DNA of 64,000 bases, from NCBI RefSeq assembly GCF_013284245.2, contig NZ_CP085876.1, positions 3,579,001-3,643,000 of the forward strand, in the 5' to 3' direction. This document shows, in pieces, positions 1,165 to 11,360 of this stretch. Under the pieces are notes generated by a model. The model was not told the DNA's origin. It searched no databases and saw only the letters and a list, made by a program, of their open reading frames with translations. This stretch comes from Brevibacillus sp. DP1.3A (GTDB taxonomy: Bacteria; Bacillota; Bacilli; Brevibacillales; Brevibacillaceae). Both the position numbers and the translations under genes were made by a program. How positions within the stretch are numbered: the stretch's first letter is position 1; each line of letters starts with the position of its first letter.

Positions 1165-2985
1165 CTAATTCGAAATGGGCAACATGATTTCCACGATGGT
1201 ACCCTTGTTAACCTCACTTGAGATGGTGATGGTGCCTTGATGGTCTTTGATTATTTTATTGCTGATAAGTAAACCTAAGCCTGTTCCTTTTTCTTTCGTG
1301 GTATAAAAAGGTTCACCAAGCCTAGGCAGCAGCTCTTGGGAAATACCACAACCATTATCGGTAAAACGAATCAGCACTTGGTTATTATGAAGGCATGTGG
1401 TTTCTATGCTGATTTCGCCATTCGCCGTGATAGCATCCAGGGAATTCTTCAATATATTGATAAAGACTTGTTTTACATGATTTTCTTCTCCTTTAATCGC
1501 TATCGGTATATGGCTGAATATGGTGTTGATCGAAATGTTGTTGAGATTCGCTTCTGATTCGAGAAACTTTACCACACTTTCAATGAGAGGATGTAAAAGA
1601 ATCCGCTTCACATTCAGAGTTTGCGGTTTGGCCAATACAAGCAGCTCACTCACGATAAAGTTGATGCGATCTAGCTCGGACAACATAATGTCTGTAAAAA
1701 TGACGCCCTCCGATAGCGTTGGCCGCAAGTACTGGATAAAGCCTTTCAATGACGTAAGAGGATTCCTTATTTCATGCGCGATACTTGCAGCCAATTCACC
1801 GATTACGGACAGCTTCTCTGTTCTGCGGAGAAGTTCTTCGTTCTGCTTCCTCTCCGTAATATCACGTGTAACGTTGATAAAGTATTGACTTTCGCCATCC
1901 GAGCTGAAAAAAGGCATTCCTTTTGATTCGAGGTAGATCCATTTCTCGTTTTCCACTTTGTATCGATACTCACATGTAATAGGTATATCGAATTGAAGCA
2001 TAGTGGAAAATCGCTCAAAGACGAGTGATGCATCTTCTGGATGAATGTTTTCAATGATAATTTGGTTCGTACCTAATTTCTTCAGATGTGAAGGTGAACC
2101 ATACGATACGTGACCGTTCTTATCAATCACGGATATGAAGTCTGCTGTGTGTTCGGCAATGAATCTATACTGTTCCTCGCTCTTGCGCAAAGCTTCTTCA
2201 GACTGTTTTCGCTCGGTGATACTGCGTGAAACGAATAGAAAGCTATCAACCTCTTTGTTCTCAGACATGATCGGAACACAACGCGACTCCCAGTACACCC
2301 ACGATCCATTTTTATGGCGTATTCTGATCTCCATTTGTACATTTTGGGGATTCGTGGAGAGTAAGGAACGCAGGTCTTTCACGATTTTCACATCATCGGG
2401 GTGAATGAGATCAAAACTATTCGTTTGCAGAAATTCATCCGGTGTGTATCCCAAATGGTGCTCGATAGAAGGAGATACAAAAAGATTATTCATGTGTACA
2501 TCATGTTGACAAATAACATCGCTTGTATTTTCTACGAGGATACGGTACTTTGCCTCGCTTGTCATGAGAGCCTCTTCCGCCATTTTGCGGTCCGTAATAT
2601 CTCTTGCGATGACGGAAGTGCCTATGATCGTTCCTTCTGTATCTCTTATAGGGGAAGCTGTTAGACCAACCTGCACGATCTGGCCATTTTTTCGTTGACG
2701 CACGGTCTCATATCCCGTAATATTTTTCCCTTCATATTTAACCTCGTGGAAAATTTCCTTTGTCTCGTCAATAAGATCTTCAGGTACGAGACAGTACGGG
2801 TCATTCCGGAGGTCTTGATACGTCCAACCATAGATTTTTTCAAAAGCACTATTCACAAAAAGTATTTTACCCTGCATGTCCCTAACTGAAATCGCGTCCG
2901 TAGTCGTTTCAACAAGTGACTGAAGCAGCTCTTTCATGTTGAACTGTTCTTGTCTAAGGTCGATTCTCTGAGCTTCTTTATCCAT
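1165..2985 (-). CDS. Triple-PAS sensor histidine kinase
   Basis: A 606-residue kinase without membrane segments. Three PAS/PAC units are visible at about residues 15-130, 140-260 and 265-380, each ending in a DITDRK/SITERK/DITERK linker. A HisKA domain follows with the phospho-acceptor in HEIRNPL (about residue 400). The HATPase domain has the N box (NILKNSLDAI), G1 (DNGCGI) and G2 (GTGLGL). The soluble PAS-only layout resembles sporulation kinases such as KinA/KinE, which feed the Spo0F phosphorelay. No response regulator is adjacent, so this is an orphan kinase, consistent with that role but not proof of it. AAGGAAGG precedes the start codon. The neighbouring cupin gene upstream has its own terminator, so the kinase probably has its own promoter. 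Confidence 0.9.
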   Translation of the reverse strand: MDKEAQRIDLRQEQFNMKELLQSLVETTTDAISVRDMQGKILFVNSAFEKIYGWTYQDLRNDPYCLVPEDLIDETKEIFHEVKYEGKNITGYETVRQRKNGQIVQVGLTASPIRDTEGTIIGTSVIARDITDRKMAEEALMTSEAKYRILVENTSDVICQHDVHMNNLFVSPSIEHHLGYTPDEFLQTNSFDLIHPDDVKIVKDLRSLLSTNPQNVQMEIRIRHKNGSWVYWESRCVPIMSENKEVDSFLFVSRSITERKQSEEALRKSEEQYRFIAEHTADFISVIDKNGHVSYGSPSHLKKLGTNQIIIENIHPEDASLVFERFSTMLQFDIPITCEYRYKVENEKWIYLESKGMPFFSSDGESQYFINVTRDITERKQNEELLRRTEKLSVIGELAASIAHEIRNPLTSLKGFIQYLRPTLSEGVIFTDIMLSELDRINFIVSELLVLAKPQTLNVKRILLHPLIESVVKFLESEANLNNISINTIFSHIPIAIKGEENHVKQVFINILKNSLDAITANGEISIETTCLHNNQVLIRFTDNGCGISQELLPRLGEPFYTTKEKGTGLGLLISNKIIKDHQGTITISSEVNKGTIVEIMLPISN

Positions 2986-3073
2986 AGGTTTATACCTTCC
3001 TTAAACGAAGATTGTGAATAATGATAATATTCTATGCTTGTTGAAAATATCCTTGGGAAAATATCTATCCCAC

Positions 3074-3105
3074 TAAAAAAATCCCGCCCCTTAAAAAGGA
3101 GCGGC
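3074..3105 (-). terminator. Rho-independent terminator downstream of the cupin gene
   Basis: Read on the minus strand, the stem CCGCTCC / GGGGCGG is followed by a run of seven T. It lies between the cupin gene (ends 3172) and the kinase start (2985). Confidence 0.75.
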
Positions 3106-3171
3106 ATAACTTCCCCTATTTTTTTTAGTCACTCCCTCGATGTCCGGCACCATTTCCTATCAACTCGATTC

Positions 3172-3741
3172 TTATTGAGTGCTTTGCTCAGAAGCCATGG
3201 CACTGGCTTTCGTCTCATGAACGGTGCCAAAAGGATGATGAGGTGGCGCGTAGATGGAATATACTTTAAGCGGCGTATTACCCGTATTGATAACATTGTG
3301 CCATTTGCCCGCAGGGACCATGATGGCATCGTTATCATTTACTCTTTGTTCAAAATCTAAATGATCTTGTCGATCCCCCATCCGAACAAGTCCTTGGCCT
3401 TCTTCCACTCGGATGAATTGATCCGTATCCGGATGATTTTCTAAACCGATGTCGTCTCCAACATTTATACTCATTAGCGTCACCTGCAAGTGCTTCCCTG
3501 TCCATAATGCCGTACGGAATGTGTTGTTTTGCTTTGTGGCTTGCTCAATATTCACGACAAATGGCTTTGGTCCATAATCTCTCAATTCGATGGTATTCTG
3601 ATCACGATTCCAGTATCGATTTCCATTCGCATGGCTCCAGCTGTAATAATGAGGACTCCACCCATAGTGAAAATGGTTGTTATTCCATCCGGCAAGCACA
3701 GGATAATACCATTGATAGTAATGGTAAGAATTGTTGTACAT
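3172..3741 (-). CDS. Cupin-domain protein with Tyr/Trp/His/Asn-rich N-terminus
   Basis: A 189-residue protein with two parts. The first 55 residues are packed with Tyr, Trp, His and Asn (for example HYYQWYYPV and NNNHFHYGW), a composition often seen in spore coat or surface proteins. Residues about 65-170 form a single cupin barrel with metal-binding motif residues ENHPDTDQFIRVEEG and PAGKWHNVINTG. Cupins of this mannose-6-phosphate-isomerase-like type bind a metal through His and Glu; the substrate is unknown. AGGAG sits eight bases before the ATG. The spore-coat idea rests on composition only. Confidence 0.75.
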   Translation of the reverse strand: MYNNSYHYYQWYYPVLAGWNNNHFHYGWSPHYYSWSHANGNRYWNRDQNTIELRDYGPKPFVVNIEQATKQNNTFRTALWTGKHLQVTLMSINVGDDIGLENHPDTDQFIRVEEGQGLVRMGDRQDHLDFEQRVNDNDAIMVPAGKWHNVINTGNTPLKVYSIYAPPHHPFGTVHETKASAMASEQSTQ

Positions 3742-3790
3742 CTCAATCTCCTCTCCAGTGTAAAGGATTTACCCTTTAGCCTATGTGGCT

Positions 3791-3804
3791 ACCTGATGTC
3801 AGGT
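3791..3804. promoter_or_regulatory. 14-bp palindrome upstream of the cupin gene
   Basis: ACCTGA-TG-TCAGGT lies 50 bases upstream of the cupin start codon, in the gap after the MOSC gene. No T-run follows on either strand, so an operator is more likely than a terminator. The regulator is unknown. Confidence 0.3.
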
Positions 3805-3840
3805 AACTATTCTGAAGAGCAAATATTTACATACCTGTAG

Positions 3841-4524
3841 CTATGATTGGTTGCCTGTCAGCCTTTCGCGCGTATCAATTTCTATGCCGGATAATCGTTT
3901 GGTAAAGGTCGCTCGCCAATTGGAGGACAGCTCGTCTACTTCCAACAGCTTTTTCATGCCGTCGATATTCTCTTTTTCTTGATGCATGATTCGGTTTGCA
4001 TAAGAGACCGTTATCGCTTTTGGATGACATGAGAGTCTTATCAATCCATCCGTATAAGATACAAGCCCTTCTTTTAGCACGCGAAAATAAAAGCCAGTAT
4101 AGCCGGTCTCTTGGACCCTAACCAACATTTCGGGCACACCGTAACGCACGGATAATTTATAACAAGGCTGTCTCGGTTGACTGACCTGTACGATCGCTCC
4201 CCCTAGCTGAAAGGTATCGCCGATGCATACGTCCGTCTCAACTAATCCCCGAATCGTCAGATTTTCTCCGAAGGCACCGATTGCCAGCTCTCTCTGTAAT
4301 TCAGCTTCCCAGAATGGGTAGTGTTCATACGGATAGACGCATACGGCCTTCTCCTTGCCCCCATGGTGGACCAGATCTGCCTGTCCATCTCCCTCGAAAT
4401 TCAAAAAGGATAGATATAGAGCTTTTGTTGCAGGGCTTTTGAAAATGCTGGTAGAAACCTCTTTGTTTTGATACTGTACTTGTTTGGGTTTACCTACATT
4501 CAGTGAAATGATTTCGATATCCAC
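3841..4524 (-). CDS. MOSC-domain protein (YiiM-like)
   Basis: A 227-residue MOSC protein. Diagnostic segments are VHHGGKEKAVCVYPYEHY, GAFGENLTIRG and the Cys-containing QPRQPCYKL. In this family the Cys ligates the molybdenum cofactor. The C-terminal about 60 residues match the helical extension seen in the YiiM subgroup, whose E. coli member reduces N-hydroxylated compounds such as 6-hydroxylaminopurine. The start is GTG, with GAGGTGATC eight bases upstream. The gene is divergent from the LysR regulator with 103 bases between, the classic layout for an activator and its target, so regulation by that LysR protein is a reasonable inference. Confidence 0.85.
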   Translation of the reverse strand: MDIEIISLNVGKPKQVQYQNKEVSTSIFKSPATKALYLSFLNFEGDGQADLVHHGGKEKAVCVYPYEHYPFWEAELQRELAIGAFGENLTIRGLVETDVCIGDTFQLGGAIVQVSQPRQPCYKLSVRYGVPEMLVRVQETGYTGFYFRVLKEGLVSYTDGLIRLSCHPKAITVSYANRIMHQEKENIDGMKKLLEVDELSSNWRATFTKRLSGIEIDTRERLTGNQS

Positions 4525-4580
4525 AAGCGATCACCTCATTCTTTTATTCATACAAATCCATAATGGTTTGTTCTATAATG

Positions 4581-4595
4581 ATAGGAAAAACCTAT
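4581..4595. promoter_or_regulatory. LysR-type operator ATAGG-N5-CCTAT
   Basis: A perfect inverted repeat ATAGG-AAAAA-CCTAT lies in the divergent gap between the MOSC and LysR genes. It contains the T-N11-A core typical of LysR-family sites. A second copy of the same arms occurs at 5591-5607. Confidence 0.6.
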
Positions 4596-4627
4596 TGTTC
4601 GATCATAAATCGCCGGAGGGATAGTCG

Positions 4628-5524
4628 TTGGAGCTCAAGCAATTAGAATACTTTATGGCACTGTGCCAAGAGTTGAATTTTACTCGCGCAGCCGAGAAAT
4701 TGGGCATTGCGCAGCCTTCACTCAGTCAGCAAATCCGCCTGCTTGAGCATGAAATCGGTATGCCCTTGTTTGATCGCGTCGGCAAACGAACGGTTATGAC
4801 GGAAGCAGGAAAAACATTGCTTCACCATAGCTATAATGTGTTTCATGAGTTGTCACAGGCACGTGCAGCGATTAGTGAGCTGCAAGGCTTAAGCAGAGGC
4901 GCATTAAAAATTGGCGTACTGCTGACAGTTGTCAATTACTTGCTCCCGCCTACTGTTATCGAGTTTCACCAGCGTTATCCGAAGGTTGAATTGTCTATTT
5001 TTGGGTTGAGAACCGGTGATATTTATGAAGGTCTTCTGAAAAACGAACTCGATCTCGGCATTGTTTTTTTGCCTATGGAGCATGACGATCTAGAAACCAT
5101 TCCGCTCTATACAGAAAATCTGGCCCTAGGCGTACCTGTGGATCATCCGATCGCAAAGGAACCGTTTGTTTCGCTTGCGATTTTGAAAGAAACCCCCTCC
5201 ATTTTATTGCCCAACACGTACTTTTTGCGTCAGTTGATTGATGAAAAGTGTCAGGAGCTGGGCTTCGCGCCACAGCCTGTTTTGGAGATGACCACAATGG
5301 AATCGATTACGAATATGGTCGGGCAAGGTGTTGGTGTCACGGTACTTTCGAAAGGCTACCTCGACTATATCGATGATAAACGGATTCGAACGATTCCGAT
5401 CCAACAGCCCACTATCACGGCGCAAATCGGTATCGTTTACCGGAAAAACAAGTATTTGTGTGCAGCAAGCCGAGTCTTTATGGAGCAGTTAATTGCCACG
5501 GTAAAACACGATGATGTTCGATGA
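4628..5524 (+). CDS. LysR-family transcriptional regulator
   Basis: A 298-residue regulator. Residues 1-60 are the winged helix-turn-helix (MELKQLEYFMALCQELNFTR, AAEKLGIAQPSLSQQIRLLE). Residues about 90-290 are the two-lobed effector-binding domain. LysR proteins bind DNA as tetramers and usually activate a divergent gene in response to a small molecule; here that would be the MOSC gene. The start codon is TTG, supported by GGAGGG seven bases upstream. The effector cannot be predicted. Confidence 0.9.
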   Translation: MELKQLEYFMALCQELNFTRAAEKLGIAQPSLSQQIRLLEHEIGMPLFDRVGKRTVMTEAGKTLLHHSYNVFHELSQARAAISELQGLSRGALKIGVLLTVVNYLLPPTVIEFHQRYPKVELSIFGLRTGDIYEGLLKNELDLGIVFLPMEHDDLETIPLYTENLALGVPVDHPIAKEPFVSLAILKETPSILLPNTYFLRQLIDEKCQELGFAPQPVLEMTTMESITNMVGQGVGVTVLSKGYLDYIDDKRIRTIPIQQPTITAQIGIVYRKNKYLCAASRVFMEQLIATVKHDDVR

Positions 5525-5590
5525 TGCCAGAGTCAAGATCAGTTTATGACGAGGCAAATCATTGTTCAATAGCAGCGTTGTTATCATTTC

Positions 5591-5607
5591 GATAGGTATT
5601 GCCTATC
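5591..5607. promoter_or_regulatory. Second ATAGG-N5-CCTAT operator, orphan
   Basis: GATAGG-TATTG-CCTATC has the same arms and spacing as the site in the MOSC/LysR gap. It lies between the 3' ends of the convergent LysR and MarR genes, where no downstream gene explains it. Confidence 0.45.
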
Positions 5608-5612
5608 ATTAT

Positions 5613-6227
5613 TTAGTTATTCCCAGTGGAAATATGCTCGGGGCATTCTTTCAAGGATGCTTCATGCGTGAGGTACTTTTCAATGAACGCGCAATAATGA
5701 GGTGTATGGGAATCACCTGTATTCGACCGAAAATGAATGCAGCCTAGACAGGGCTCCGCTACAACGAGATGACCACGTCTTTGCATCGCTGTTATCACGG
5801 AGCTGAGCCCGATCTCGAAATCTTCCAGTATGTCATCCGGAATAGAATGAAGGGCTTCCTCCAGTGTGTACCCCCATTTTTCAAGGCTCGATGCTGCTTC
5901 TTTTCCCTTTGCAGTCAATTGAAGCAGCGTCACTCGTCGATCTTCTTTTTTAGGTACTTTCGTCATGTGTCCTTTCGTTACGAGTCCATTGATGATCTTA
6001 ACAGCTGTCACATGCGTCGTTCCGATTGCCTTGGCAAAGTTACCAATGGAAGCCACGTCGCTTCTCGTATACAAAGCGAACAGTAACGCCTGAATTTGTA
6101 CGGGTGACAGTCCCTGTTCATCACTCTCTGCCTGGGTCACCTTTTTAATCGCTTGGGACATTCGAAATAGAGCCATCATGATACGAGCTGAGCGATTTTC
6201 CTTACGTTGTTGGGGATCAAACATCAT
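5613..6227 (-). CDS. MarR-family regulator with C-terminal four-Cys motif
   Basis: A 204-residue protein, about 60 residues longer than a usual MarR. Residues about 15-150 hold the winged helix (AKAIGTTHVTAVKIINGLVT) and wing (KKEDRRVTLLQLT). The extra C-terminus carries Cys160, Cys163, Cys179 and Cys195 in the pattern CLGC...HYC...CPEH, which could bind zinc or an iron-sulfur cluster or sense thiols. The thioredoxin-like gene lies directly upstream but has its own terminator. A short palindrome at 6262-6276 may be its own operator. Ligand and targets are unknown. Confidence 0.85.
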   Translation of the reverse strand: MMFDPQQRKENRSARIMMALFRMSQAIKKVTQAESDEQGLSPVQIQALLFALYTRSDVASIGNFAKAIGTTHVTAVKIINGLVTKGHMTKVPKKEDRRVTLLQLTAKGKEAASSLEKWGYTLEEALHSIPDDILEDFEIGLSSVITAMQRRGHLVVAEPCLGCIHFRSNTGDSHTPHYCAFIEKYLTHEASLKECPEHISTGNN

Positions 6228-6261
6228 GATCGTATCTTACCTTCCCTGTTCCATTCTTCTA

Positions 6262-6276
6262 TCCATTGTAAATGGA
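6262..6276. promoter_or_regulatory. Palindrome upstream of the MarR gene
   Basis: TCCATT-GTA-AATGGA lies 36-50 bases upstream of the MarR start codon. The size and position fit an autoregulatory MarR operator; this is inference. Confidence 0.35.
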
Positions 6277-6300
6277 AACATGGTCGTGTAAAAGCATAGG

Positions 6301-6333
6301 AAAAAGGAGGCGCCTCAAAAGCACCTCCTTTTC
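6301..6333 (-). terminator. Terminator of the thioredoxin-like gene
   Basis: The GGAGG-based stem with flanking A and T runs (arms 6306-6312 and 6321-6328) follows the stop codon of the 79-residue thioredoxin-like gene and precedes the MarR gene. Confidence 0.75.
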
Positions 6334-6337
6334 TCAT

Positions 6338-6577
6338 TTAGCCGTTTTTCACATCTTCCAAGCTTGCACCAAAGTTAATGTGGTAGACGTTCCCGCCAAT
6401 CACGAGAGCAGGAACTGATTGAATACCAGCCTTCTCTGCATCCTCAAGGCGATTCCGCTCTGTACCAAGGTGGACAATTTCAATATCGATTTTTGTTTGA
6501 TCCAGGTAATCAAGGACGACTTGCTCCGCATCTACACATACTGGGCACCCTGCATGATAAAAAATGGCTTTTAACAT
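6338..6577 (-). CDS. Small thioredoxin/glutaredoxin-like protein
   Basis: A 79-residue thioredoxin-fold protein. The redox motif CPVC is at residues 11-14 (YHAGCPVC), and the cis-Pro loop is visible as QSVPALVI. There is no signal peptide, so it acts in the cytosol. The size and motif fit glutaredoxin-like proteins that pass electrons to small acceptors. It is a single-gene unit ending in a clear terminator, with the MarR gene next on the same strand. Confidence 0.85.
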   Translation of the reverse strand: MLKAIFYHAGCPVCVDAEQVVLDYLDQTKIDIEIVHLGTERNRLEDAEKAGIQSVPALVIGGNVYHINFGASLEDVKNG

Positions 6578-6662
6578 TTGAAATCAGCTCCTATCGATTT
6601 TATGTAGCATTGCTACGTATTTGATTATAGGAGTGACCATCTTTTGGAACAATTACAAATTG

Positions 6663-6679
6663 CCTATGATTATCATAGG
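6663..6679. promoter_or_regulatory. Perfect 17-bp palindrome upstream of the thioredoxin-like gene
   Basis: CCTATGAT-T-ATCATAGG lies 86-102 bases upstream of the thioredoxin-like gene and just after the end of the bacteriocin operon. Its left flank (ATTGCCTAT-ATTAT) matches the flank of the orphan LysR-like site at 5591-5607, suggesting a shared regulator. No T-run follows, so it is not an obvious terminator. Confidence 0.45.
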
Positions 6680-6714
6680 GAATCACGATGATTGAACATA
6701 TTAGTGGAATTGTA

Positions 6715-7107
6715 TTATATATCTTTCACTCTTACATTATACGAATACATTGCAGTTGCCCTATCTTCTACAAAAAGTATGGCTTTATAGTAGCCTGCCA
6801 TTGTCATAGTAATGGACAAGTCCGCCCAAGTGTCTACACCTGGTACTTGGTCTTTTTGACGTTGGTTGTACACATGCATCTTTCCAGTATAAGCAACTAG
6901 ATCTTCCTCGTCGTAGACATTAATACCAATGTTGATCATTTCATCCGATTGGATATTTTGTAATTTCACAAAGAATGACAGCTTAGACACAAAAGGCAGA
7001 GTTTCCACAGTGAGTGTATTCAGAACCCTCCCTAATTGTAAGGCTTTTGTTCCATCTTCCATTTGCACCATATGTACGTTATCCAGCATTAATAGTTGTG
7101 CTTCCAT
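6715..7107 (-). CDS. Unknown small protein, last gene of the Cys-rich peptide operon
   Basis: A 130-residue soluble protein without Cys, signal peptide or membrane segment. Predicted beta-strands such as KLSFFVKLQNI and YYKAILFVED suggest a beta-sandwich, loosely like DUF6941 proteins, but I do not firmly recognise it. The start at 7107 (MEAQLLML) is chosen because GGGGAG lies nine bases upstream. It overlaps the preceding gene by 29 bases, which supports membership of the same transcript. An immunity or accessory role is possible by position only. Confidence 0.6.
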   Translation of the reverse strand: MEAQLLMLDNVHMVQMEDGTKALQLGRVLNTLTVETLPFVSKLSFFVKLQNIQSDEMINIGINVYDEEDLVAYTGKMHVYNQRQKDQVPGVDTWADLSITMTMAGYYKAILFVEDRATAMYSYNVRVKDI

Positions 7108-7573
7108 TATCGTGATCTCCCCGTTCATGGAATGTCCATTTTCCTTGTCTCTGAATATTGCCCGTGCAATCCACGTTTATAAAATATGGATACATGCTAA
7201 TCCCTAAATATTTCATGATGGCTTGCTCTTCGTCATAGAGTACTTTAGCCTTATCGCTAACTTTTTTTGAAAGAAGATGCGCTTTCCATTTTGGAGCATG
7301 GTAGATCACATACAAGGGAGTAGCTCCGATTGAAGAACTTACTTGTTCTATATAATCGATATTATTTCGATCGGTAAAAGTTAGAAACAAATACGTCGCT
7401 TCTACATTGAACACTGGTTGCATCTGTATATTCGGCTCGTTTATGAAACCCATTTTCTGCAAATGAAGAACATTCTCTCTTTTTAGTATGAGAAGTTGAC
7501 GAACGATCATAATATTGGAGATGGTTAGCGCTAAAATTACTAACCAAATTATCAGTTCTGTAATTTCAAACAA
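7079..7573 (-). CDS. Membrane-anchored thioredoxin-fold protein lacking CxxC (MauD-like)
   Basis: A 164-residue protein with one N-terminal membrane anchor (about residues 6-28) and an outward thioredoxin-like domain. The segment where TlpA/MauD proteins carry CxxC reads FLTFTDRNNIDYIEQV, without cysteines. The cis-Pro region (GISMYPYFINVD) is still recognisable. The only Cys is in the late NVDCTGN segment. In methylamine-utilisation loci a MauD-type anchored thioredoxin acts next to MauE; here the same pairing is seen, but with a redox-dead copy, so a scaffold or chaperone role is possible. The start is 16 bases from the end of the MauE-like gene. Confidence 0.6.
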   Translation of the reverse strand: MFEITELIIWLVILALTISNIMIVRQLLILKRENVLHLQKMGFINEPNIQMQPVFNVEATYLFLTFTDRNNIDYIEQVSSSIGATPLYVIYHAPKWKAHLLSKKVSDKAKVLYDEEQAIMKYLGISMYPYFINVDCTGNIQRQGKWTFHERGDHDNGSTTINAG

Positions 7574-7589
7574 TTGGCTCCCTCATTTC

Positions 7590-8096
7590 TTACTGGTGCT
7601 TCAGCAAGACGCTCCATTCTTTTGCTAACAAATAAACAAGTGCAGCACTGAAAGTCATGAATAGTTGATGGAGATTACTGTTAATGCTTGGAACCACGTT
7701 CACCCCAGCATAAACGCCAAACAGGGCAATACTCACTAAACATCCATTTCTTATGAGTGCCGCCACTAAATTGGTCTCCCCATTACCTTTGCCAAAACAA
7801 TGGCAAGAGACGTTTTTCTTGGCGAGTTTGACCTTGAGTAAGGCTATTGAAAAGCCAATTAATAATAGGAGGGATAACAAAAAAGTAAACTGGACCCAAA
7901 AGAATAGAGTGAAGAAGATACTGAGTATCAATTCTGTTGCCAGAACAGCAATACCAACTGGTTTAACTAGTTTGTCAGAAATCATTTCAAAACTTCTGAT
8001 CGTCTCAAAATAATCTCGCCGATCCATACACTTAGCACAAAACGAAATGCAGAACAGCAGTCCAAATCCCAATGCCATTCCTTCAATAATTGTCAT
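7590..8096 (-). CDS. MauE/DoxX-like membrane protein with CHC motif
   Basis: A 168-residue membrane protein with four to five helices. Cys98 and Cys100 occur in SCHCFGKG, the motif that marks MauE-like proteins; further cysteines occur near the N-terminus (Cys16, Cys20, Cys23). MauE-family proteins are thought to act as membrane thiol oxidoreductases that help form disulfides in exported proteins. The gene lies four bases after the CVYC thioredoxin-like gene in an operon headed by an eight-Cys peptide, so an oxidase role in folding that peptide is the natural inference. Confidence 0.75.
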   Translation of the reverse strand: MTIIEGMALGFGLLFCISFCAKCMDRRDYFETIRSFEMISDKLVKPVGIAVLATELILSIFFTLFFWVQFTFLLSLLLLIGFSIALLKVKLAKKNVSCHCFGKGNGETNLVAALIRNGCLVSIALFGVYAGVNVVPSINSNLHQLFMTFSAALVYLLAKEWSVLLKHQ

Positions 8097-8100
8097 ATTC

Positions 8101-8514
8101 CTATCCTGCCTTCTTTAAGAGAAAATGGAAGTCTTCCGGCTTGTGCACCACACCAGACTGAACTATTTTGCCTTCGGTTAGAAATAATACAAACGGGAGC
8201 TCATTCATTCCAAAGATGTCGTCCATTTGTTCATACTCCATTAAAACAAGGGGAAATTCCCATCCGAAATACTCCATCATTTCTTTATGGTCATCCGGTT
8301 CTCCATTCGCTAAGACGATAAAATGATAGGCAGATGCTTCCGATAATTCTTTTAAATGTGGCAACAGGTCTACGCAATATACGCAATAAAGCGAGACACA
8401 TACGATTGCACTGTTCGAATGATAGTCCTTCACAGTGATTTCGCTTCCATCGTGATTTTTTAGTATGAGAGAAGACAAGTTCTCCTCGATTTGAGTACTG
8501 ATCATGCTATGCAT
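8101..8514 (-). CDS. TlpA-like thiol-disulfide oxidoreductase (CVYC)
   Basis: A 137-residue thioredoxin-fold protein with CVYC at residues 44-47 after a hydrophobic strand (NSAIVCVSLY), and a cis-Pro loop NELPFVLFL. There is no signal peptide or anchor. The first frame-opening codon is TTG at 8523 but touches the GGAGG site; the ATG at 8514 has GGAGG nine bases upstream and was preferred. The ribosome-binding site overlaps the stop region of the ABC gene, which implies coupling. It probably works with the MauE-like protein on the Cys-rich peptide. Confidence 0.75.
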   Translation of the reverse strand: MHSMISTQIEENLSSLILKNHDGSEITVKDYHSNSAIVCVSLYCVYCVDLLPHLKELSEASAYHFIVLANGEPDDHKEMMEYFGWEFPLVLMEYEQMDDIFGMNELPFVLFLTEGKIVQSGVVHKPEDFHFLLKKAG

Positions 8515-8530
8515 ATGCTTCAACCTCCAT

Positions 8531-10321
8531 TTATACAGTAACTGGAATGTTATACCAGTTTATTTGCTTTTCCCACATGGAATGATACTCTCCTTGTTTG
8601 GCAATCAATTCATGATGGTTACCTGCTTCAATAATCTTTCCTTCCTTCATCAAGTATATCTGGTCGACTTTGCTTGCGATGCCTACACGATGGGAGATAA
8701 TAATAACTGTCTTATCTACTGACATATTGAGGATTTGGTTAAAGATTTCCAGTTCACTGTTAGGATCAAGAGCAGATGTCGGCTCATCTAGCACGAGAAG
8801 GTCAAAGTCTCTCATAAACGCACGGCATAAAGCTAATCGTTGCCATTGACCTCCCGATAAATTAGTGGCATCGTCGTATAAAAAACCCAACTTCGTATCG
8901 ATCCCCTGAGGAAGTTCCGTTAATTTTTCTAATCCAACCCGATTAAGCATGATTCTCATTTTTTCATCGTTGTGCAAATCATGCATATTGGATAAAGCCA
9001 GATTTTCACGAATGCTCATTGAATAATTGATGAAATCCTGAAATACCACACTCGTTTTATTCCATAAGTCCCTCGTTTGCATGTTCCCAAGGTCATTCCC
9101 ATCGAAAAAAATGGTGTCGTGTGGTGCTTTGTACAGCCCAAGCAAATTTTTGATCAAAGTCGATTTACCGGCTGCATTATCACCTAAAATAGCAATCTTC
9201 TGCCCCTTTTGGATTGTCATGTGGATGTTCTCAATCGCTGGCTCTGTTCGATTCGGATAGGTAAATGTTAGATTGTCTACTCGTATTTCTTTTAGGAAGG
9301 AAGCTTGGACATATTCCTCCTCACACTTCTCTTGTTTATTCTTATTATCAACCAATGTCGATCTAATTGACTCGATATATTTATTATTCTCATAGATAGA
9401 TCCTACGCGTTGAATAAAACTGACCATGCTATTCTCAGCGATGCTAAAAGCCATAGTAATGGCAACAAAATCACTGATTGTAAATGTTTTTTGGCTGATC
9501 AAATACGCGATAGTCACAATAATCAGTGTCTTGTTTAGTTGAGAAAGTAGCAGACTCCATGTTGTATGTACATTGGTTTTTTTTTGCATATTCAGTTGTT
9601 TAGCGATCGCTTTTTCCTTCTTTTGAACCCATTGAACTTTGAGGTAATCATAGATTTGCATTAAGGTGATTTCTTTGTGATAACGAAAGTCGGTTAAGAG
9701 TTGAAAAAAGTAATTGTGTTCACGATATGTGTGATTGATCTCATTCGTTACATGAACTCTTTCGTTGGTAATCTTCAATTCGATGTAGCCTCGCAACATG
9801 GAGAAGATAATAACAAAAAAACCAAGCGCAACAAACGAAGCAAACAAAAAGCTAAGACTTAAAATTACGTTTAGAAATACTTGGAATAAGTTTATCGTGT
9901 TGTAGAAAGTTTCTAGATACTTTGAAAGTGCATAATGATGCTGGTGATACTGACCATAAAATTGCGGGTCCTCTTTTTTGACCAAGTCTTCATGATAGAG
10001 ATGATCAAGTAGATCCACCTGGTTATGTATTTCAAATTCCGCTTGAAATTTGTTTTCTACATGCTGCTGATATGCCTTGAGTACAGTTGAAAGGACCTCC
10101 AATCCAGTCATCAATCCGACTAACATGAGTACAATCTTTAACTCAACCGCGGATGTTGTCAGTGCACGTACTAGCTGATCCGTTAGAAATACGTTTAAGT
10201 TAGTCTGTACCGCTAATAACAGAGCAATGATCAAATTTAGAATGATGACAAACTTGTTTATTTTCCAGACTTTGTACATGACATATCTGATGATACTGAT
10301 ATTCTTACGCAAGACAATCAT
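8531..10321 (-). CDS. ABC exporter (membrane + ATPase fusion), no peptidase domain
   Basis: A 596-residue half-transporter. About six membrane helices lie in residues 20-310, then an ATPase with Walker A GDNAAGKST (about 380), signature NLSGGQWQR (about 485) and Walker B LLVLDEPTSALD (about 510). It lacks the N-terminal C39 peptidase found in transporters that cleave double-glycine leaders, which agrees with the apparently leaderless peptide gene upstream. It overlaps the preceding CAAC gene by four bases (ATGA). Export of the Cys-rich peptide, or self-protection by pumping it, are the likely roles. Confidence 0.85.
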   Translation of the reverse strand: MIVLRKNISIIRYVMYKVWKINKFVIILNLIIALLLAVQTNLNVFLTDQLVRALTTSAVELKIVLMLVGLMTGLEVLSTVLKAYQQHVENKFQAEFEIHNQVDLLDHLYHEDLVKKEDPQFYGQYHQHHYALSKYLETFYNTINLFQVFLNVILSLSFLFASFVALGFFVIIFSMLRGYIELKITNERVHVTNEINHTYREHNYFFQLLTDFRYHKEITLMQIYDYLKVQWVQKKEKAIAKQLNMQKKTNVHTTWSLLLSQLNKTLIIVTIAYLISQKTFTISDFVAITMAFSIAENSMVSFIQRVGSIYENNKYIESIRSTLVDNKNKQEKCEEEYVQASFLKEIRVDNLTFTYPNRTEPAIENIHMTIQKGQKIAILGDNAAGKSTLIKNLLGLYKAPHDTIFFDGNDLGNMQTRDLWNKTSVVFQDFINYSMSIRENLALSNMHDLHNDEKMRIMLNRVGLEKLTELPQGIDTKLGFLYDDATNLSGGQWQRLALCRAFMRDFDLLVLDEPTSALDPNSELEIFNQILNMSVDKTVIIISHRVGIASKVDQIYLMKEGKIIEAGNHHELIAKQGEYHSMWEKQINWYNIPVTV

Positions 10322-10803
10322 ACTGACTTCGTCCTTTGATAAAACACGTTAATAAAAGGGCGTGCTTGTCTCTCCATCGATTCAAATTCGCTACATAACC
10401 CGCCTGCAACGATTTGCCCTACTTTGTTAACACCAAACATCCATGGAATTCCGTAAAAGTCTAATTCTTTCTGCACAAATATTGACTCACATTGGACAAT
10501 TGGAACTTCAGGAAATCTGTTTCTTATCGCGTTAAGGTATTCCTCATCGCCTTCAATTAACATGTGATACGTGAACTTTGGATACTTGTTAATGAATGCT
10601 TCCGCTGCATCGTAGTTACAAGCTGCACACCTTTTACTCATCACAAAAATGATTGTTGAATAAGGGACATTTCTAATCCAATCCAATTGTAGGGTTTCCC
10701 CTTGCTTGTTTAATACCAATTCAGAGGGTAAATAATTTCCAATTTGATAAATTGGTACTGGTTGACTTTTTAGAAACCTGCGGTGATTTGTTTCTGGCAT
10801 CAT
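10318..10803 (-). CDS. Thioredoxin-like protein (CAAC) of the Cys-rich peptide operon
   Basis: A 161-residue protein with a redoxin-type fold: an N-terminal strand pair, then TIIFVMSKRCAAC with the CAAC motif at residues 59-62, and a cis-Pro-like loop YGIPWMFGVN. There is no signal peptide or membrane segment. It is the first gene after the peptide gene, separated by 73 bases that contain a hairpin. GAGGAG precedes the start. It probably acts as a thiol-disulfide oxidoreductase on the eight-Cys peptide or protects it before export. Confidence 0.7.
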   Translation of the reverse strand: MMPETNHRRFLKSQPVPIYQIGNYLPSELVLNKQGETLQLDWIRNVPYSTIIFVMSKRCAACNYDAAEAFINKYPKFTYHMLIEGDEEYLNAIRNRFPEVPIVQCESIFVQKELDFYGIPWMFGVNKVGQIVAGGLCSEFESMERQARPFINVFYQRTKSV

Positions 10804-10838
10804 GTCTTATCGGTCTCCTCTTTATGAAATGAATGAAG

Positions 10839-10862
10839 GGAGAGCGGTATTCCCCGCTCCCC
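10839..10862 (-). promoter_or_regulatory. Hairpin between peptide gene and machinery genes
   Basis: Arms 10839-10847 and 10854-10862 form a nine-pair GC-rich stem (one G-U) with a six-base loop. No T-run follows on the minus strand. Such structures often limit read-through or protect the 3' end of an abundant bacteriocin message; that role is inferred. Confidence 0.55.
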
Positions 10863-10876
10863 ATGTAATAGAATCT

Positions 10877-11092
10877 TTAGCAGCAAGAACCCCAAGAGAT
10901 ATTGCAGTATTTATCGGTAAAGGAGTCTCCGGGTACTTTATCGTCAAATTTAATGCAACGCTGGTAGTATTGTTGGTAATTACGTTGCCACGAGCAATCT
11001 TTGTGGCTCATGCAACCTTTTTCGGTATTACTTGCAATTAGTCCGTCTGCAGATGGAGTATAACCACTTGGGCAATCGTATTTGCAAATCAT
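10877..11092 (-). CDS. Eight-cysteine bacteriocin-like peptide (laterosporulin-like), apparently leaderless
   Basis: A 71-residue peptide with Cys at 3, 7, 27, 33, 46, 63, 70 and 71. It starts MICKYDCPSGYT and ends YCNISWGSCC. From memory, the Brevibacillus defensin-like bacteriocin laterosporulin also has an early C..CP motif, a central GC/QC, a Y-rich stretch before a Cys, and a YCxxxWGSSC end, with six Cys. This peptide can be aligned to all six and has two extra (33 and 70), enough for a fourth disulfide. There is no signal peptide or double-glycine leader, and the start codon has a textbook AGGAGG eight bases upstream. Downstream genes encode thiol oxidoreductases and an exporter. Homology was judged by eye, so bacteriocin function is inference. 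Confidence 0.75.
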   Translation of the reverse strand: MICKYDCPSGYTPSADGLIASNTEKGCMSHKDCSWQRNYQQYYQRCIKFDDKVPGDSFTDKYCNISWGSCC

Positions 11093-11143
11093 TCGAAATT
11101 CCTCCTCATACTCTAAAAATATTGTAATTTTGGGATAATCAGA

Positions 11144-11165
11144 AAAATATAGGGCCCGATATTTT
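11144..11165. promoter_or_regulatory. 22-bp palindrome in the peptide leader region
   Basis: An inverted repeat centred on GGGCCC (11152-11157), with AAAATAT/ATATTTT flanks and one mismatched pair. It lies about 13-34 bases after the predicted transcription start. With no loop it looks more like a protein-binding site than an RNA hairpin. Confidence 0.5.
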
Positions 11166-11184
11166 CCAAATAATCCCTTTATTT

Positions 11185-11213
11185 GTTATATCAAATTAAT
11201 AATTTGAAGACAA
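11185..11213 (-). promoter_or_regulatory. Promoter of the peptide operon with palindromic spacer
   Basis: On the minus strand TTGTCT (-35, 11208-11213) and TATAAC (-10, 11185-11190) are 17 bases apart. The spacer (11191-11207) is itself a perfect palindrome, TCAAATTA-T-TAATTTGA, so a regulator bound there would sit between the two promoter boxes. The start of transcription should be near 11178. Confidence 0.6.
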
Positions 11214-11290
11214 CCATTTTTCGGAAAAAATATATTAAATAGTTATTTTTTACCAATTTATTTTTTAGAAATGGAGACTCTTCTGATAAA

Positions 11291-11329
11291 CGCGGAAAAG
11301 GCACCTGCTTACTCACTTCAAGCAGATGC
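11291..11329 (-). terminator. Terminator of the two-component operon
   Basis: A ten-pair stem (arms 11301-11310 and 11320-11329) is followed on the minus strand by CTTTTCC. The T-run is short, so termination may be incomplete and some transcripts could continue into the peptide operon. Confidence 0.55.
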
Positions 11330-11360
11330 ACAATATGATTTTGTCTATTCCCCTTAAACG

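Follow-up and report, generated by a model that had tools for sequence, protein, structure and literature searches.

We analysed a 64,000-nucleotide (nt) stretch of Brevibacillus sp. DP1.3A (contig NZ_CP085876.1; hereafter the window; host genome G000, 6.66 Mb) and found that seven co-directional, almost gapless open reading frames (ORFs) on its minus strand (window 11092-6715) quite likely constitute a laterosporulin-type bacteriocin operon, probably horizontally acquired, with an enlarged precursor and a predicted inward-facing disulfide machinery. A laterosporulin-type operon is defined here by its gene order, Peptide-B-ABC-D-MauE-F-G, which is found in the window and in the laterosporulin operons L031, L046 and L047. 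The window operon, which on sequence grounds is probably functional, is a variant within the laterosporulin kind, and its peptide lies outside the curated laterosporulin family as presently defined. From the peptide gene onwards, the genes are as follows.

10877..11092, minus strand: A, predicted leaderless precursor of 71 amino acids (aa) with eight cysteines (Cys), MIC...WGSCC; ORF with a Shine-Dalgarno (SD) sequence
10318..10803, minus strand: B, thioredoxin-like protein with CAAC and without a signal peptide; profile A5 and CxxC conservation
8531..10321, minus strand: C, ATP-binding cassette (ABC) exporter, permease plus ATPase, without a peptidase domain; Pfam ABC_tran
8101..8523, minus strand: D, ResA/TlpA-like thioredoxin with CVYC and without an anchor or signal peptide; profile A6
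7590..8096, minus strand: E, MauE-family membrane protein with CHCFG in a lysine/arginine (K/R)-rich loop; PF07291
7079..7573, minus strand: F, protein with one transmembrane (TM) segment, its globular part without CxxC, predicted N-out/C-in; sequence
6715..7128, minus strand: G, small DUF6941-like all-beta protein, marker gene of the survey; PF22091 below cut-off

Sixty genomes were searched with E (7 matched) and with F (2 matched), and the link to laterosporulin came from the one foreign locus common to both, contig 9 of Brevibacillus laterosporus MSSRFCCT15 (G045). There, the identical seven-gene order carries laterosporulin at its head, and the head peptide passes PF17861 (135.4 bits) and NF033806 (115.6 bits). 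Two further genomes of the genus hold a laterosporulin operon (L046 and L047, the latter from B. laterosporus LMG 15441), and the L047 peptide, near-identical to that of MSSRFCCT15, matches PDB 4OZK across all 49 residues. Comparison of the window with the laterosporulin operon by blastp gave 35% identity for B (E-value 1e-34), 36% for C (4e-136), 36% for D (8e-32), 28% for E (1e-19), 30% for F (5e-19) and 20% for G (1e-13), so that the six proteins other than the peptide differ from their laterosporulin counterparts at 20-36% identity. The first-pass annotation of this DNA had been aware of no system in which this exact set had been described, a claim that the same seven-gene order around laterosporulin in B. 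laterosporus overturns; novelty is further cut by an earlier proposal, in the available parts of PMC7794033, of MauE next to precursors with at least eight Cys in Streptomyces. The laterosporulin papers themselves, in the parts available, leave the MauE and thioredoxin genes of laterosporulin unnamed.

All seven ORFs were confirmed from the ORF list, with intergenic spacings from A to G of +73, -4, +7, +4, +16 and -50 nt, and every motif described in the first pass was recovered (an eight-Cys peptide, two CxxC proteins, a CHC MauE protein, a peptidase-less exporter and a small protein). The start ATG of peptide A is preceded by the SD sequence AGGAGG, and the first Cys is already residue 3 behind this SD-supported ATG; the others are residues 7, 27, 33, 46, 63, 70 and 71. 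No peptidase family occurred among the 15 Pfam matches of C, and A and C together thus appear to form a leaderless pair, with no leader on the peptide and no peptidase domain on the exporter. The authors of the laterosporulin study likewise remarked on an absent protease domain, and reported that mature laterosporulin starts with Ala after Met removal (PMC3293901, available in part). Residue 2 of A is Ile, and therefore Met1 may stay on the product. The calculated average mass with Met1 is 8143.1 Da for the reduced and 8135.0 Da for the oxidised peptide; without Met1 the oxidised form would have 8003.8 Da.

The redox partners were assigned from profiles. Profile A5, built for B, reached a PDB thioredoxin at an E-value of 2.2e-4, and B and D aligned to each other by hhalign at 1.2e-10; the single B protein gave no thioredoxin match against Pfam. 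Profile A6, built for D, reached a ResA structure at 1.8e-9, and D itself scored 19.8 bits against AhpC-TSA in Pfam, under the cut-off of 26. The CxxC motif is kept in 43/43 homologues of B and in 43/45 of D, the remaining two being fragments of split frames. E matches MauE (PF07291) at 71.7 bits (cut-off 27). F has a single, N-terminal hydrophobic segment, so its description in the first pass as anchored and CxxC-less stands; the thioredoxin fold also ascribed to it found no sequence support, with an hhalign E-value of 0.021 (probability 2.3%) against B and two unrelated proteins as the top PDB matches of its profile (0.02 and 0.036). G scored 18.5 bits against DUF6941 (PF22091), missing the 27-bit cut-off; its orthologue in the laterosporulin operon reaches 37.0 bits, and structure prediction gave a confident beta-sandwich of generic type. 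The word DUF6941 was found in no paper of the open-licence literature.

Alignment of peptide A to laterosporulin pairs C3, C7, C33, C46, C63 and C71 with the six Cys of laterosporulin, and the C63-X7-C71 spacing is identical in both. The laterosporulin spacing of six Cys does not hold for A as a whole, which has eight Cys, six of them alignable and two (C27 and C70) extra. Laterosporulin and laterosporulin10 (class IId; PDB 4OZK, 6LWY, 6LWZ) are likewise leaderless Cys-rich head peptides with a Cys framework ending in W..xC; they differ in length and Cys number, with PDB chains of 49 to 53 residues and six Cys compared to 71 aa and eight Cys in the window peptide.

We then surveyed the operon with G as the marker gene. 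Homologues of G were found in 40/394 Paenibacillaceae genomes (the family of G161), at 47 places, and in 4/39 genomes of the window's own order; across the phylum, 1/398 genomes matched, which was the window's own, a weak negative given the very divergent profile. The B profile matched 5/398 Bacilli genomes. For gene content, we compared 50 loci, namely 46 of the 47 Paenibacillaceae places together with the window, L031, L044 and L045, and all 50 contain D together with G; B is present at 48 of them, C at 46, E at 43 and F at 35. Paenibacillus xylanexedens (L043; P0011) carries A-B-C-D-G, with E and F undetected. As for other ARRANGEMENTS, two of the three laterosporulin genomes hold a second set, B-D-E-F-G, after which come three eight-Cys peptides and the exporter (L044, L045).

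Candidate peptides were called as SD-preceded ORFs of 35-95 aa with at least six Cys and a Cys within the last four residues; peptide A is itself such an ORF. The 320 kb of neighbourhood around the first 45 loci contained 56 of these ORFs on the operon strand and none antisense, and 42 of the 45 loci had a candidate at 1.5 kb or less on the operon strand. A recount over all 50 loci placed a peptide ORF within 1.5 kb in 47 and within 2 kb in 49; for the 46 Paenibacillaceae loci the figures were 43 and 45. The peptides of L105 and L110 sit slightly past 1.5 kb, and L119, with broken genes, gave no candidate. The first-pass annotation had named as refuting its reading the case that homologues of the downstream genes never occur beside a small Cys-rich ORF, and the 45 of 46 loci gave the opposite outcome. 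Co-location of a small ORF with an unrelated redox and export operon by chance is very improbable: three ORFs fitting the same rule did arise outside the operon neighbourhoods (387 kb, both strands), as chance would allow, whereas the 45/46 Paenibacillaceae loci with an SD-preceded ORF on the operon strand, and a Cys spacing identical or nearly so in the window, L114 and L117, argue against it. The first-pass proposal of an operon devoted to disulfide formation in, and export of, a leaderless peptide is supported.

The peptides themselves form a diverse set. Searched against 4529 small ORFs, the window peptide matched those of L114 (6e-10), L124 (1.5e-8) and L117 (5e-8), each of which heads a B-C-D-E-F-G operon in Paenibacillaceae, and five of the next six matches (E-values of 0.12 to 0.81) were also operon peptides. 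The pattern CX3C...CX5CX12C...CX6CC is common to the window, L114 and L117, with X14 in one loop of L124; the L152 peptide is alike by eye. None of nine non-laterosporulin peptides submitted to NCBIfam matched any model. Among 59 distinct peptides, 43 have eight Cys, ten have six and six have ten, and none has an odd number, which supports full pairing and is not decisive. Tandem identical peptide genes were also observed, with four copies in L108 (10829-11707) and two in L093 (11182-11675).

The peptide is probably of the defensin type. It may instead be a signal, a metal-binding peptide or one aimed at a non-bacterial target, exported by the same machinery and not a bacteriocin, which we regard as unlikely. 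The near-neutral charge of A (computed isoelectric point 6.5) and the ability of Cys-rich peptides to bind metal fit such a role; against it, laterosporulin, the product of the nearest operon that has been characterised, is antibacterial (PMC3293901, available in part), and diverse peptides on a conserved machinery would fit competition peptides.

We examined on which side of the membrane the redox proteins would act. None of 43 B proteins and none of 42 D proteins had an N-terminal hydrophobic segment; their highest 15-residue hydropathy was 1.10 and 1.14, respectively, compared to 18 ResA-like controls with no value under 2.41 (median 3.17). In F, the charge is more positive on the C-terminal than on the N-terminal side of the TM segment in 31/33 proteins and equal in two, from which its globular part is predicted to be cytoplasmic; in the ResA-like control the sign was reversed in 16/18 and equal in two. 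Across 39 MauE proteins, 2 to 7 K+R (median 5) fall in the CxC loop, compared to about 0.2 at the N-terminus and fewer than one in the TM2-TM3 turn. From these charge patterns, the MauE CxC loop and F are predicted to lie on the cytoplasmic side, and the enlarged ResA control slightly firms up the argument.

In the route we propose, the 71-aa peptide would be made without a leader, and its disulfides would be formed or proofread by B, D and MauE (E), with F assisting, and with oxidation at the cytoplasmic face before or during export. All eight Cys would pair, giving the laterosporulin-like six plus a fourth disulfide, C27-C70. Electrons would pass along an inward-facing chain from the peptide thiols to B/D, to MauE and to the quinone pool; passing electrons to the quinone pool is the chemistry of related membrane proteins. 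Exporter C would then secrete the peptide, which would inhibit competing bacteria. For G, the predicted beta-sandwich, a role in holding the substrate or in immunity is a guess. Extended to the whole family, this would describe a bacteriocin class with three to five disulfides, pre-folded at the cytoplasmic face by a membrane-bound MauE electron sink and two soluble thioredoxins and exported leaderless, with one machinery serving many divergent peptides, a generalisation that we put forward tentatively.

The same operon could also serve a peptide that folds outside the membrane, with B and D keeping it reduced and exportable inside or repairing it, and E and F feeding the process; we hold this to be a genuine possibility short of an even chance. 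Known bacteriocin thiol-disulfide helpers mostly act outside the cytoplasm, and cytoplasmic thioredoxins are often reductants. The thioredoxin partner of bactofencin is thought to aid disulfide formation (PMC7616364, available in part). Opposed to folding outside are the charges of MauE and F, which point inward, opposite to the ResA-like control, and the gene content of the operon, among whose products no thioredoxin is secreted or faces outward (the host's general oxidases were not searched).

Several observations weigh against the reading of the window as a laterosporulin-type operon with an inward-facing machinery. Peptide A reached laterosporulin by blastp at an E-value of 0.005 over the last ten residues only, and matched neither PF17861 nor NF033806 at an E-value of 10 or less; a four-row profile of the window subclass reached laterosporulin at just 0.85 and 1.9, and so common descent of the peptides is argued mainly from gene order and Cys pattern. 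The AlphaFold2 model of A was poor (predicted local distance difference test score, pLDDT, 61.7), with no usable structural match. E was undetected in 7/50 loci and F in 15/50, and both are either dispensable in places or sometimes undetected. F is divergent, and part of its absences may therefore be missed detections: in L100, L105 and L110, where F was undetected, the MauE frame is over-long (293, 323 and 298 aa), and the L100 extension resembles F, by eye only. Background ORFs with at least six Cys are also mostly even in Cys number (60 even, 19 odd), and Cys parity is weaker than it appears since the peptides are mutually related. Finally, the topology is derived from the charge rule.

The window operon was also compared with other known systems. 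The bactofencin A, pediocin and sublancin systems have one or two helpers, a leader and a peptidase-containing exporter, and are not known to include MauE. A dedicated thiol-disulfide partner is part of the pediocin and sublancin bacteriocin operons, as it is here. The same likeness holds for bactofencin A (PMC7616364, available in part). Actifensin (PMC6989792) is a defensin-like bacteriocin with three disulfides, as is known from the available part of the paper, in which the word thioredoxin is absent; it differs in its leader peptide and gene set. The MauE/MauD candidate families of decRiPPter in Streptomyces (PMC7794033) similarly have MauE adjoining a predicted precursor with at least eight Cys; compared by description only, and from part of the source, they belong to another phylum, with no set like B, C, D, F and G described. 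In methylamine dehydrogenase maturation, MauE is of the same family as E, whereas the substrate here would be a small exported peptide. The MauD resemblance of D is below cut-off (21.1 of 188.6 bits), and MauD carries a membrane anchor, unlike D.

Publications on laterosporulin probably delimited its clusters too narrowly. In the available text of PMC3293901 the cluster covers 4 kb and comprises a regulator, a hypothetical protein, an ABC transporter and a 'dehydrogenase'; the LMG 15441 operon measures 4378 bp from the peptide to G, and a 4-kb region also holding a regulator therefore cannot contain all of it. In PMC6510442, as far as available, the structural gene is accompanied by a presumed immunity protein, two transporters and a regulator in clusters termed complete, and heterologous expression from 6738-6750 bp EcoRI fragments failed. 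In L046, the peptide-bearing EcoRI fragment (2011-8884, 6873 bp), the nearest in length to those clones, stops inside D and lacks E, F and G; the cuts lie elsewhere in L031 and L047, making L046 one of three laterosporulin-type loci checked. A D-truncated fragment as the reason for the failed expression is thus a lead only, as the published strains were not among the loci checked. A seven-gene laterosporulin-like cluster is mentioned in PMC7017464 (available in part), labelled as a circular bacteriocin. No open-licence paper, in the parts available, was found to link MauE or thioredoxin genes to laterosporulin, subscription papers being outside the scope. Laterosporulin passes from a Brevibacillus speciality to part of a broad family of operons, whose 59 distinct peptides in this survey have three to five predicted disulfides, and a complete gene set is named for testing. 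The value lies in this wider family and in a testable inward-facing redox model; if true, oxidation on the cytoplasmic side would be an unusual bacterial route to disulfide-rich peptides, and a possible production tool.

The operon occupies an island with the following features.

6697..11358, minus strand: island with the entire operon, about 4.66 kb; four relatives aligned to the window by blastn
11093..11358, minus strand: AT-rich stretch upstream of A, inside the island, carrying the SD sequence AGGAGG
10839..10862, minus strand: hairpin directly 3' of A, 9-bp stem, -18.4 kcal/mol; computed

The relatives G004, G013 and G002 share both flanks, separated by only 84, 199 and 600 nt, which sets the island boundaries at about 6690-6697 and at 11358. 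The unit given in the first-pass annotation, 6715..11213, was located correctly, and its bounds are better drawn at about 6697-11358, the stretch without a counterpart in the relatives. In a fourth relative, G005, 2.5 kb that include an unrelated gene occupy the site, which therefore looks variable; the gene there (L149, 698-2323) is a 541-aa serine-hydrolase-like gene. The GC content is 37.6% in the island compared to 46.7% in the remaining window, and the operon was probably acquired by horizontal transfer. A Brevibacillus brevis record holds B at 95% (P0002) and G at 97% identity (P0020) on the same 6,486,246-base contig, so the operon is not confined to this strain.

The hairpin 3' of A could possibly decouple expression of the machinery from that of the peptide, and the 45 nt 3' of the stop codon gave z < -2 in 30/56 peptide genes with simple shuffles. 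Promoter-like matches across the operon region showed no excess over chance. A two-component system precedes the window operon and is present in 14/26 genomes of the genus. Ahead of the laterosporulin operon stands a gene resembling a regulator, its C-terminus of LuxR type by eye (L031, 2486-3163; L046, 5083-5769; L047, 5173-5850); none was seen before the window operon. On the other side, a 79-aa CPVC thioredoxin-like gene (window 6577-6338) adjoins a MarR-type regulator; it was excluded as an operon member, as it occurs in genomes without the operon.

Related genes were also observed elsewhere. In G002, a relative of the window peptide (L032, about 5800-5600, minus strand; 43% over 37 residues, E-value 7e-6) is apparently degraded, with no operon genes seen around it. 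The window's own genome holds, in L033 (C1:4781000-4793000; 5541-8431), an anchored CxxC thioredoxin-like protein, an ABC exporter and a MauE protein (CGCGG); a scan of that operon strand gave no SD-preceded Cys-rich small ORF. In G011, L034 carries a Cys-rich peptide ORF (3413-3622; 69 aa, six Cys, C-terminal CC), followed directly at 3755-7938 by thioredoxin-like proteins with an anchor, MauE, an ABC exporter whose gene is divided between two frames, and more ABC genes; it is a related yet distinct system.

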